Assembly (NCBI RefSeq): GCF_000819845.1
Contig: NZ_CDCG01000031.1
Coordinates: forward strand, 578 to 64,577
DNA length: 64,000 nucleotides
Direction: 5' to 3'
Source: Aeromonas enteropelogenes
GTDB lineage: Bacteria; Pseudomonadota; Gammaproteobacteria; Enterobacterales; Aeromonadaceae
Shown here: in pieces, positions 6,326 to 35,648 of the stretch
How positions within the stretch are numbered: the stretch's first letter is position 1
How the letters are laid out: each line of letters starts with the position of its first letter
Program-made: the position numbers and the translations under genes
The notes under the pieces: generated by a model
Told to the model about the DNA's origin: nothing
The model's input: only the letters and a program-made list of their open reading frames with translations
The model's database searches: none

Positions 6326-7696
6326 GTGACTGCTTCGCTATGGCAGCAGTGCCTTAACCGGCTGCAAGATGAGTTGCCCTCGGCAGAATTCAGCATGTGG
6401 ATCCGGCCGCTTCAAGCGGAGTTGAGTGACAATACTCTGACCCTGTATGCACCGAATCGCTTCGTTCTGGACTGGGTACGAGACAAGTACCTCATCCGGG
6501 TGAACGGCATCATCAATGAACTCTGCGGGGTCGATGGCCCCGCCCTGCGTTTTGATATCGGTAATCGTCCCCATCCCGTGGCTGTCGCCAGAGCGCCGGC
6601 ACAGGGTGCCGCACCTGTGAATAACTTGCAGAAGAGCTGGGAAAGCAAGGCCGAAGCCAAGCCGGAACCGAACCACAAGAGCAACACCAACGTGAACTAT
6701 ACCTTCGAGAATTTCGTCGAAGGTAAGTCCAACCAGTTGGCCCGTGCGGCTGCCCGTCAGGTGGCGGATAACCCGGGTGGCGCTTACAACCCGCTGTTCC
6801 TCTATGGCGGCACTGGTCTGGGTAAAACTCACCTGCTACACGCTGTCGGTAATGCCATCAAGGAGAGCAAAAAAGATGCAAAAGTCATCTATATGCACTC
6901 CGAGCGGTTCGTTCAAGACATGGTGAAGGCGCTGCAGAACAACGCCATCGAAGAGTTCAAGCGCTATTACCGCAGCGTCGACGCCCTGCTCATCGATGAC
7001 ATCCAGTTCTTCGCCAACAAGGAGCGCTCCCAGGAGGAGTTCTTCCACACCTTCAACGCCCTGCTCGAAGGCAACCAGCAGATCATCTTGACCTCGGATC
7101 GCTATCCGAAGGAGATCAACGGTGTCGAGGATCGTCTCAAGTCCCGCTTCGGCTGGGGTCTGACCGTGGCGATCGAGCCGCCGGAGCTGGAGACCCGGGT
7201 TGCCATCCTGATGCGCAAGGCGGACGAGAACCAGATCCACCTGCCGGACGAAGTGGCCTTCTTCATCGCCAAGCGGCTGCGTTCCAACGTCCGTGAGCTG
7301 GAAGGTGCCCTCAACCGGGTGATCGCCAACGCCAACTTCACGGGCCGCGCCATCAACATCGATTTCGTGCGCGAAGCGCTGCGCGATCTGCTGGCGTTGC
7401 AGGAGAAGCTGGTCACCATCGACAATATCCAGAAGACGGTGGCGGAGTACTACAAGATCAAGCTGGCGGATCTGCTCTCCAAGCGCCGTTCCCGCTCCGT
7501 TGCCCGTCCTCGCCAGTTGGCGATGGCGCTGGCCAAGGAGCTGACCAACCACAGTTTGCCGGAGATAGGTGATGCCTTTGGTGGCCGTGACCACACCACC
7601 GTTCTTCATGCCTGCCGCAAGATCGAGCAGCTGAAGGAAGAGAGTCACGACATCAAGGAGGACTATTCCAACCTGATCCGTACCCTTTCTTCCTGA
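6326..7696 (+). CDS. dnaA: Chromosomal replication initiator protein DnaA
   Basis: DnaA binds oriC boxes and opens the duplex to start chromosome replication. The 456-residue protein starts at GTG (6326) behind AGGAGT at 6315-6320. Domain I ([15 protein letters not shown]) is followed by a short linker. The AAA+ domain has Walker [12 protein letters not shown] near residue 161 and Walker B LLIDDIQF near 221. The C-terminal DNA-binding domain has the DnaA signature [15 protein letters not shown] near 419. It leads the dnaA-dnaN-recF-gyrB cluster. Its last ten codons are imperfectly repeated just downstream. Confidence 0.99.
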
Positions 7697-7793
7697 TAAC
7701 GGAACCAAGTGCACAGATGCAGATCGAATATTCCAACCTGATCCGAATCCTTTCCTCCTAATCACTACGGAGAGCACAGATGCAGCTCGAAAT
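7664..7793 (+). repeat. Imperfect tandem duplication of the dnaA/dnaN junction
   Basis: Two consecutive units of about 65 bases (7664-7728 and 7729-7793) each hold the end of dnaA (TATTCCAACCTGATCC...), a short spacer and the start of dnaN (GCACAGATGCAG...GAA). Between the real dnaA stop and the real dnaN start this creates a 14-codon mini-ORF at 7717-7761. It reads MQIEYSNLIRILSS, a dnaN-like head fused to a dnaA-like tail. The intact dnaA ends TGA and the copy ends TAA. Confidence 0.9.
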
Positions 7794-8883
7794 TAGCCGT
7801 GAGGCCCTGTTACGTCCTCTGCAACTGGTGTCCGGCGCCCTCGGTGGCCGACCGACCCTGCCGATCCTCGGCAACGTGCTGCTTGATGTCAGCAACGGTC
7901 TGCTGTCACTGACCGGTACCGATCTTGAAGTAGAGATGATCGGTCAGGTCTATCTGAACGGAGCCAGTGAAGATGGCCGCACCACAGTGCCGGCACGCAA
8001 GCTGCTGGATATCTGCCGCGGCCTGCCGGAAGGCGCCGAGATCCGTCTCAATACCGAAGGCGAGCGCCTGATCATCCGTTCCGGCCGCTCCCGCTTCAAC
8101 CTGTCGACCCTGCCGGCGACCGAATACCCGAACATCGAGGACTGGGAGTCCGTGCTCGAGTTCGACATCAGCCAGCTGGAACTGAAGAAGCTGATCGATG
8201 CTACCCAGTTCTCCATGGCGAGCCAGGACGTGCGTTACTACCTGAACGGCATGCTGTTCGAGAGCGAAGGGCATGGCTTGCGCACTGTGGCGACCGACGG
8301 TCACCGCTTGGCTACCTGCCGCCGCGAGGTAGTGGGGGAATCGCTGCCCGATCATCAGGTTATCCTGCCGCGCAAAGGGGTACTGGAACTGGTGCGTCTG
8401 CTGGAGGCGGAAGACAAGCCGGTGCGGCTGCAGATCGGCCGCAGTAACCTGCGCGCCGCCCTCGACGGTTTCATCTTCACCTCCAAGCTGGTGGATGGCC
8501 GCTTCCCGGACTGGCGCCGTGTCATTCCGCGCAACAGCGACAAGGCCCTGATCGCCGGTCGCGAGGATCTGCGCCAGGCCTTTGCCCGTGCCGCCATCCT
8601 CTCCAACGAGAAATTCCGTGGTGTGCGTCTCAATCTGCAGGAAAACCTGCTGCGCATCACCGCCAACAACCCGGAACAGGAAGAAGCCGAAGAGCTGCTT
8701 GACGTACAATATGCCGCTGGCGAGATGGAGATCGGCTTCAACGTCTCTTATGTGCTGGACGTGCTGAATACGTTAAAATGTGACCAAATCCGGGTCAGTC
8801 TGAGCGATTCCGTCAGCAGTGCCATTATTGAGGATTTTGACAATCAGGATGCTCAGTATGTGGTAATGCCGATGCGGATCTAG
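7780..8883 (+). CDS. dnaN: DNA polymerase III subunit beta (sliding clamp)
   Basis: The 367-residue product is a full-length beta clamp, the ring that tethers DNA polymerase III to DNA. It begins MQLEISREALLRPLQLVSGAL and ends NQDAQYVVMPMRI, the conserved C-terminal MPMRL-type motif at the partner-binding cleft. RGVRLNL and ATDGHRLA are typical family segments. The start has an ACGGAGA Shine-Dalgarno at 7766-7772. An upstream imitation of this start at 7717 opens only a 14-codon frame. Confidence 0.99.
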   Translation: MQLEISREALLRPLQLVSGALGGRPTLPILGNVLLDVSNGLLSLTGTDLEVEMIGQVYLNGASEDGRTTVPARKLLDICRGLPEGAEIRLNTEGERLIIRSGRSRFNLSTLPATEYPNIEDWESVLEFDISQLELKKLIDATQFSMASQDVRYYLNGMLFESEGHGLRTVATDGHRLATCRREVVGESLPDHQVILPRKGVLELVRLLEAEDKPVRLQIGRSNLRAALDGFIFTSKLVDGRFPDWRRVIPRNSDKALIAGREDLRQAFARAAILSNEKFRGVRLNLQENLLRITANNPEQEEAEELLDVQYAAGEMEIGFNVSYVLDVLNTLKCDQIRVSLSDSVSSAIIEDFDNQDAQYVVMPMRI

Positions 8884-34279: not shown

Positions 34280-34392
34280 GGGCGCGGCTCCTCCGTCAGT
34301 TGGCAGAGTGCCGGACGGCGTGCCGATCCGGTCGGGGAGCACATCGGCCGGGTTGAGACTTCCAACAATATGTTGCTCATTTGCGCAGCTCC
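34249..34392 (-). repeat. Imperfect duplication of the livM/livG junction with a bridging mini-ORF
   Basis: On the minus strand the livM end and livG-like start GGAGCTGCGCAAATGAGCAA is repeated about 100 bases on as GGAGCCGCGCCCATGAGCAA, the latter at the real livG start. Similarity continues into the coding sequence (GGAAGTCTC in both). The first copy's ATG overlaps the livM stop and opens a 34-codon frame (34276-34380) beginning MSNILLEVS, against MSNKLMEVS in LivG. Its stop overlaps the true livG ATG. Confidence 0.75.
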
Positions 34393-35648
34393 AGGTGGGG
34401 ACGGGTCATCGGCAGCAATCCTTGTGGCCGCCAGATCATCATGAACACCATCAAGAGGCCGAACATCAGCATGCGGTACTCGTTGAATTCACGGGCCAGT
34501 TCCGGCAATACCGTCATCACGATGGCGGCCAGTACCACCCCGATCTGGGAGCCCATGCCGCCCAGTACCACGATCGCCAGCACTATGGCCGACTCGATGA
34601 AGACGAAGGATTCCGGGCTGATGAAGCCCTGGCGCGAGGCGAAGAAGCTGCCGGCAAACCCCGCGAAGCAGGCGCCTATGGTGAAGGCGGTCAGCTTGAT
34701 GATGGTGGGGTTGAGGCCGAGCGACTTGCAGGCGATCTCGTCTTCCCGCAGCGCTTCCCAGGCACGGCCCAGCGGCATGCGCAGCAGGCGGTTGATGACG
34801 AACAGGGTCGCCACCACCAGCACCAGCGCCATCAGGTAGAGAAAGATCACCTTGTGGTTGGCGTTATAGGTGATGCCGAAGAACTCGTGGAAGGTCTCGA
34901 AGCCGCCATCCTTGACGGTGCGGTTGAATTCCAGGCCACCGAGCGTTGGCTTGGGAATGCCGGAGATACCGTTCGGGCCGCCGGTCAGGCTGGTCATGTT
35001 GTTGAGCAGGATGCGGATGATCTCGCCGAATCCCAGGGTAACGATGGCCAGGTAATCCCCCCGCAGCCGCAGCACGGGGAAGCCGAGCAGGAAGCCGAAG
35101 GTAGCCGCCATCAGGCCGGCAATGGGCAGGCACTCCCAGAAGCTCAGGCCGAAGTAGCTGTTGAGTAGGGCGTAGCTGTAGGCACCGACCGCGTAGAAGC
35201 CGACATAGCCCAGATCCAACAGGCCGGCGAGGCCCACCACCACGTTCAGGCCCAGACCCAGCATGATGTAGATAAGCGTCAGGGTGGCGAGATCAATGGC
35301 ACCGCGAGAGGCCATGAAGGGCCAGCTCACCGCAAACAGCAGTACCAGCACAGCGGTGAGGTTATAGAGTTTGGGTGCCTCCTCCGGGCTCGGCAGCACC
35401 AGCTTGGTGAAGCCAACCGAGAAGCCACTGATGGAGGCCTGGAACAGGCGCGCGATCTGGCCACGCAGCATCTGGAACCAGAACACCAGGGTGGCGCCGC
35501 CCAGCAGCCAGGCCAGCGACACATCGAGGCGACTCACTACCAGCAGGCGGGAACCGTCGGTCTCGAGCTTGAAGCCCAGCAGCCAGAAGGAGAGCACCAG
35601 CAGCACCAGGCTGGCGATACAGGCATGGATAAATTGGTGTTTCATCAT
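34377..35648 (-). CDS. livM: Branched-chain amino-acid ABC transporter permease LivM
   Basis: LivM forms the membrane channel with LivH. The 423-residue protein has the extended N-terminal region with two or three extra helices typical of LivM. The conserved core follows: [32 protein letters not shown] (given as the recognisable segment around [19 protein letters not shown]), [18 protein letters not shown] and [22 protein letters not shown], which is the ATPase-contact loop. The start overlaps the livH stop. Confidence 0.95.

Follow-up and report, generated by a model that had tools for sequence, protein, structure and literature searches.

Short tandem duplications at gene junctions of Aeromonas and the probable retention of bridging mini-ORFs by reading frame

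Introduction

Among known systems, the closest to the duplicated gene junctions of Aeromonas described here are the MIRUs of mycobacteria, whose original description is reportedly that of Supply et al. in 1997. We analysed a 64 kb stretch of Aeromonas enteropelogenes DNA (the window; bases 578-64577 of contig 31, in an assembly of 46 contigs and 4.47 Mb), whose kdp and gor genes are close to those of A. dhakensis, and in which the ends of dnaA, kdpB and gor and the start of livG recur as imperfect copies next to the intact genes, in several cases within short open reading frames (mini-ORFs) that bridge neighbouring genes. In the part of the literature drawn on here, MIRUs are repetitive, apparently mobile units with an open reading frame that couples to a neighbouring gene at -4 nt, with little effect on expression (PMC12548453). 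The mini-ORFs of the Aeromonas inserts are likewise joined to their neighbours by stop/start overlap (19/19 sequences at four junctions, a likeness of layout only). Unlike MIRUs as presented in that excerpt, the Aeromonas inserts are not one repetitive family and resemble their own flanking gene ends. Because they share no common sequence, we regard them as intercistronic mini-ORFs of a new, coupling-preserving form, with tandem duplication as the most likely source.

Other known arrangements share single features with these junctions, judged from the relevant excerpts of the papers cited. Translational coupling by termination-reinitiation occurs at ATGA and TGATG overlaps (PMC6728339, PMC12548453), and the same overlaps, recognized here from sequence alone, lie at the ends of many Aeromonas mini-ORFs; unlike coupling of that kind, in which two genes are joined directly, Aeromonas has one duplicated chimeric mini-ORF in between, or two or three of them in a chain. 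Some intergenic small reading frames of Enterobacteriaceae start at most 10 nt from the upstream stop or end at most 10 nt from the downstream start, and in the excerpt drawn on they are discussed as products of read-through or de novo origin, unlike the junction duplications of Aeromonas (PMC11188072). In Salmonella, too, bacterial duplications arise spontaneously, with short direct repeats at their endpoints; unlike those of Aeromonas, they are not tied to gene junctions or frames in the excerpted account (PMC3411829). Among the matches listed by a search of the open-access literature, which leaves subscription papers mostly uncovered, none describes such duplicated junctions in Aeromonas.

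Results

Duplicated gene ends are in excess in Aeromonas

In a permuted-junction test, the first and last 60 bases of each gene were aligned to the 150 bases beside it; flanks taken from other junctions were the control, and a score of at least 32 counted as a match. All gene calls come from our own simple gene finder, which places some start codons and neighbours wrongly, and gene names (dnaA, dnaN, kdp, gor and liv, and elsewhere pncB, dnaB and alr) were assigned by reading the sequence. In the window 4/108 end or start tests reach the threshold against 0.03 expected, and these are the dnaA, kdpB and gor ends and the livG start; the duplications that an earlier note on this DNA had described at these four genes are therefore real. 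Beyond the window the survey rests on genome samples (640 kb for the remainder of the same genome, 400 kb for E. coli MG1655). Matches number 5/1028 in the own-genome remainder (0.2 expected), 16/621 in genome G010 (0.18 expected) and 11/673 in genome G036 (0.06 expected), and none among the 663 tests of E. coli MG1655 with the same 60 and 150 bases (0.03 expected). At 22 Aeromonas gor loci, which are mutual homologues, 21/599 tests were positive against about 1.4 expected; at 58 non-Aeromonas gor loci there were 0/1858 (0.35 expected).

A second version of the test, with 90 bases against 260 and a score of 34, gave 49/3693 matches against 1.3 expected in five pooled Aeromonas genomes, each of which shows the excess (own genome 9/1120, G010 17/607, G036 12/663, G015 5/657, G014 6/646), and no match in E. 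coli (0/659) or at the 58 non-Aeromonas loci (0/1836). The comparison of gene ends with their own flanks thus yields an excess in all five Aeromonas samples and none in the comparison sequences at the same threshold, which bears out the suggestion of the earlier note that a common process acts at unrelated loci. Lower thresholds bring in a few weak comparison matches (at score 30, three at non-Aeromonas loci against 1.1 expected). Near-tandem repeats at offsets of 25-260, scanned for without restriction to gene ends, lie at junctions at 7.1-35 per Mb in six Aeromonas samples versus 2.5 and 2.6 in the comparison sequences (one in E. coli, three at other loci). Duplications inside genes show no clear Aeromonas excess (0-5 per Mb in the six samples, versus 12.5 in E. 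coli and 1.7 at other loci).

When offsets up to 1000 bp are searched, the unit is 50-149 bp long in 42/51 matches; its length peaks near 100 bp. Copies are adjacent and in the same orientation, with a single-copy state in relatives. Several gene ends bear arrays of two or three successive copies, near-identical at some loci, and many copies diverge by 10-25%. The pairing of TGA in the intact gene with TAA in the copy holds for the three 3'-end cases of the window for which it had been noted; elsewhere TGA/TGA, TAA/TAA and TGA/CGA occur, and we reject it as a general rule.

A joint dnaA-dnaN unit

At dnaA/dnaN (Table 1) the dnaA end and the dnaN start are duplicated together as one unit, the copied dnaA end having 88% identity over 34 nt. 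The 37 Aeromonas genomes searched include one that gave no match and 7 with a single copy, and among the 29 bearing the duplication the mini-ORF stops at dnaN -21 or -18 in all but two. Other genera of the family have a single copy in 20/20 genomes aligned on both sides, as judged by alignment coordinates. A tree built from flanking coding sequence requires four changes for this distribution, the duplication being missing in three genomes at one tree end and, within the other part, in G019, in G021 and in the pair G015 and G016; with a midpoint root we read this as probably one gain and three losses.

Reading frame at relay junctions

Copies between co-directional genes A and B are often chimeric mini-ORFs, with a B-like start and an A-like end, that run from the stop of A to the start of B, and stop-start overlaps (ATGA/TGATG) lie at the ends of many. 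At livM/livG the livG start is copied at 101 bp. A livH/livM-like junction of G036 has a mini-ORF that starts like the downstream gene (MMKRQFIHAC), ends like the upstream gene and has ATGA overlaps at both ends, and one junction of G023 carries three successive mini-ORFs with overlapping ATGA signals. Three ATGA-linked mini-ORFs of 28-29 residues lie in L261 at 8172-8420 (-), and the second and third of them open like the downstream gene (MIPELGQF). The peptides differ between loci, and those of the same junction can change strongly (for example 39 versus 22 residues).

The offset of the copies modulo 3 was a first hint of a frame rule, superseded by direct frame tests. The frame opened by a copied start codon stops within -12..+14 of the true start for 15/19 copied starts, and the two other frames do so in 1/38; the 19 include four kdpC/kdpD junctions from different species and two instances of one pncB-like junction. 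The four misses comprise two frames that terminate at the beginning of another mini-ORF (L003, L011), a short frame (L245) and one with no stop in range (L131).

We also searched for four tight-overlap relay junctions in 37 Aeromonas genomes and counted length differences from the query. These are +9, +6, +9, +9, +9, +9 and -6 at livM/livG (8/37 aligned through the insert, query included); four differences of -51, one of -60 and one of -57 at the junction of L139 (7/37 aligned through), where the -60 lies partly outside the mini-ORF, since the mini-ORF of G010 equals those of the -51 group in length; and +3 five times, -3 and +12 at that of L160 (8/37 aligned through). All 20 nonzero differences at these three junctions are multiples of three, in about nine distinct states, and the fourth junction shows no length change (3/37 aligned). 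Across the four, the stop-to-start chain is unbroken in every sequence examined (the 4 queries and 15/22 through-aligned relatives). Chains are likewise unbroken in 21/35 duplicated versus 72/540 unduplicated co-directional pairs spaced 60-260 nt (Fisher p = 1e-9).

The gor end and a convergent array served as controls. Length differences at gor are +22, +31, +13, +13, +29, +8, +4, +42 and +13, one of nine being a multiple of three (five of these alignments extend into the noncoding flank past the copy, and one partly aligned locus is excluded), and those of the convergent array, aligned into the copy, are +1, -4, +1, -4, -7 and -6, again with one multiple of three, giving 2/15 for both together. 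Among nine cases treated as convergent ends, one of which (L133) is actually co-directional, the offset is 2 mod 3 in two, which indicates no bias.

The mini-ORFs at five junctions have ratios of nonsynonymous to synonymous substitution rates (dN/dS) of 0.82, 0.75, 0.64, 0.42 and 0.41 (rough values from 3-6 sequences each); at the first four of these junctions, the final 80 codons of the gene upstream give 0.03, 0.00, 0.14 and 0.05. The frame is better kept than the peptide, a pattern that a ribosome relay would need. As far as sequence comparison can tell, selection seems to keep an unbroken translational relay, not the peptide.

The kdp operon and other junctions

The junctions of the kdp operon vary in how far they conform. 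The 19-codon frame between kdpA and kdpB, rated a weak case in the earlier note, is matched by a bridging frame in 7/9 insert-bearing loci (the window among them) when scored by script; one of the two misses, at L010, arose from the script picking a later start codon, and the frame there is open by eye. Four more loci have no insert, and their genes overlap directly. The extra unit at kdpB/kdpC is present in 5/13 loci, and its spacer is by eye unlike the flanks of all 8 single-copy loci. At kdpC/kdpD the imperfect copy of the earlier note falls below threshold in the window; what stands is a mini-ORF that ends in kdpD, together with clearer kdpD-start copies in relatives. All 11/11 kdpC/kdpD loci that carry an insert have an unbroken chain when permissive limits are used, which allow TTG starts and as many as four steps and for which no chance level was computed. 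L003 and L007 have three chained mini-ORFs here, the last two with a kdpD-like start (MRDEV, MRNEV), and in L013 and L015 kdpC and kdpD overlap directly. The 12-codon frame said to link kdpD to kdpE bridges half of the loci with a spacer of at least 38 nt, and it is not supported as a relay.

Copies of the gor 3' end follow in succession from the gor stop in L009, L012 and L013, a stop that lies near 11350 in each of these loci, on their reverse side; the gor spacers of L009 and L012 hold hairpin-like sequence by eye, and offsets vary between species. Copies of a dnaB-like gene end lie downstream of the gene in L133 (14090-14235, -) and L175 (14770-14915, -). The 11-codon frame previously noted after the response regulator gains from a second, 10-residue frame that resembles the regulator C-terminus and reaches the kinase start, and at the DNA level the resemblance scores 27, below threshold. 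Window positions 12398-12952, between the end of gyrB and the small gene that comes next, hold no gene call.

Table 1. Duplicated units and bridging reading frames in the window
Feature	Position	Strand	Occurrence in relatives
dnaA/dnaN junction unit (dnaA end, spacer and dnaN start) in tandem, present twice at a distance of about 65 bp	7661..7790	+	duplication in 29/36 matching Aeromonas genomes
chimeric mini-ORF MQIEYSNLIRILSS*, dnaN-like start, dnaA-like end	7717..7761	+	stop position kept in 27/29
kdpD/kdpE 12-codon frame, weak, not conserved as bridge	18407..18445	-	bridges 5/10 loci
kdpC/kdpD mini-ORF MSNEVTAAVRPMQRERGDA*, by eye similar to a degenerate kdpD-start copy; stop 5 nt inside kdpD	21026..21085	-	
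kdpB/kdpC mini-ORF; 3' part copies kdpB end (offset 98); stops 63 nt ahead of kdpC	21724..21822	-	
kdpA/kdpB bridging mini-ORF (19-codon frame), reaching ATGA	23876..23935	-	counterparts in relatives
downstream copy of gor 3' end (offset 86)	25909..25964	-	arrays in some relatives
livM/livG bridging mini-ORF, tight overlaps at both ends, unit 101	34276..34380	-	
second mini-ORF after response regulator, MLIDHRHERP*, resembling regulator C-terminus MLIAEVHELP*; stop overlaps kinase ATG (53396)	53393..53425	-	
first mini-ORF after response regulator, MTSRQVATAC*, ATGA overlap with regulator stop	53419..53451	-	

Discussion

Our preferred explanation, to which we give a probability of roughly 0.7, is recurrent tandem duplication combined with retention by reading frame at coupled junctions. 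We take the copies to be local tandem duplications because they form arrays, are single in some relatives, change rarely on the dnaA/dnaN tree and, at that junction, join the dnaA end and dnaN start in one unit. Short duplications, mostly of 50-150 bp, would recur in Aeromonas and persist across gene ends, where no gene is broken. Duplication of a junction between genes A and B would place between the two a chimeric segment with the start of B followed by the end of A. Where translation of the two genes is coupled, their stop and start overlapping or nearly touching, coupling would be kept only when the chimeric segment is an open mini-ORF from the stop of A to the start of B. Modulo 3, the unit length would then have to equal the original spacing (2 for ATGA or TGATG overlaps), a condition that the dnaA/dnaN unit may fit if it began as 60 bp and the spacer was 15 nt, the length read by eye from the single-copy junction. 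Duplications and later indels that break the frame would tend to be purged, chains of one to three mini-ORFs would remain as translational relays with drifting peptides, and uncoupled ends, such as gor and convergent genes, would follow no frame rule. We infer that ribosomes reinitiate along the chain, that the cost of a broken frame lies in lost coupling and that the duplications have a slippage-type origin. A relay, which the earlier note had held as its alternative, would explain the retention of the copies and not their origin; it agrees with the frame constraint at many co-directional junctions with both ends copied, with exceptions at kdpC/kdpD and dnaA/dnaN, and does not extend to gor or the convergent control.

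Several observations weigh against this explanation. The three junctions with 20/20 differences in multiples of three were chosen for tight overlaps, and the relatives compared share ancestry. Elsewhere the rule is looser, multiples of three accounting for 6/7 nonzero length differences from the window at kdpA/kdpB, 6/9 at kdpC/kdpD, 4/8 at kdpD/kdpE and 3/5 at dnaA/dnaN (-3, -12, -11, +3, -1), where the spacer lies partly outside the mini-ORF; L109 and, by eye, L110 have shifted dnaA/dnaN frames that end inside dnaN. No unbroken chain is found in 14/35 duplicated co-directional pairs, dnaA/dnaN and kdpB/kdpC included, and some of these 14 spacers look terminator-like by eye; a few of the 21 unbroken chains use frames other than that of the copy (L175, for example). 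The spacers at kdpB/kdpC and gor are partly without a recognized source in the flanks. A plain count gives bridging mini-ORFs in 32/578 pairs versus 19.8 from shuffled spacers, a modest gain (1/86 in E. coli, 0.7 expected; 2/250 at other loci, 1.1 expected), and because of this count we see no clear excess of them outside duplicated pairs.

Purely neutral tandem duplication, with the frame pattern a by-product of copying open coding sequence, seems to us unlikely. It accounts for the openness of copied gene ends in one frame by descent, for weakly constrained peptides, for the lack of a frame rule at gor and in the convergent cases, and for differences at kdpC/kdpD and dnaA/dnaN that are only partly multiples of three. 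Inherited openness, however, would put copied start and copied end in frame with each other in one third of cases, against the 15/19 seen, and under neutrality later indels are not forced to multiples of three, yet all 20 are. Allelic replacement by natural transformation, proposed in the earlier note as the source of junction scars, would have related DNA recombine at one end and join illegitimately at the other, leaving old and new copies of a gene end side by side. The 10-25% divergence of many copies speaks for such events, as does the dnaB/alr-like junction of L133 and L175, where the downstream copies of two genomes are 98% identical over 55 nt, their gene ends 87% identical over the final 100 nt and their spacers unrelated. 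Local tandem duplication nonetheless fits the sequences better: successive units are near-identical at some loci, units join the A end and the B start in order, the dnaA/dnaN tree has few changes, the kdpB spacer is by eye unlike the flanks of the 8 single-copy loci, and scars give no reason for the frame rule. We consider transformation quite unlikely and do not favour it as the main cause.

Retention of the mini-ORFs as genes for functional small proteins, with the peptide itself under selection, is very unlikely. Frames intact in all 19 sequences and dN/dS somewhat under 1 would suit that idea; set against it are the height of those ratios (0.41-0.82, from 3-6 sequences each), the differences in sequence from locus to locus and the junction with 39 versus 22 residues. 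Insertion of a family of mobile elements into stop/start overlaps, as reported for MIRUs in mycobacteria, is suggested by the similar coupling layout, and is hardly credible when the inserts have no common sequence across junctions and resemble local gene ends. Among 62 inserts, blastn with 7-base words at E 0.001 found no shared-sequence family, mutual matches being confined to the same or apparently orthologous junctions, and a shared mobile element was rejected.

Duplicated gene ends of this kind are a source of small intergenic reading frames that can be mistaken for selected peptides, and they raise the question of why Aeromonas accumulates such duplications. One tentative possibility, which we put forward with little confidence, is that a genus-specific process makes junction duplications of about 100 bp unusually often and that the mini-ORF arrays are adjustable relays, whose copy number and frame would set the output ratio of operon genes. 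The preferred explanation, of tandem duplication and retention by frame, would make these junctions a natural mutation-selection experiment on translational coupling, carried out at many junctions of one genus, in which the survival of a duplication apparently depends on its frame.

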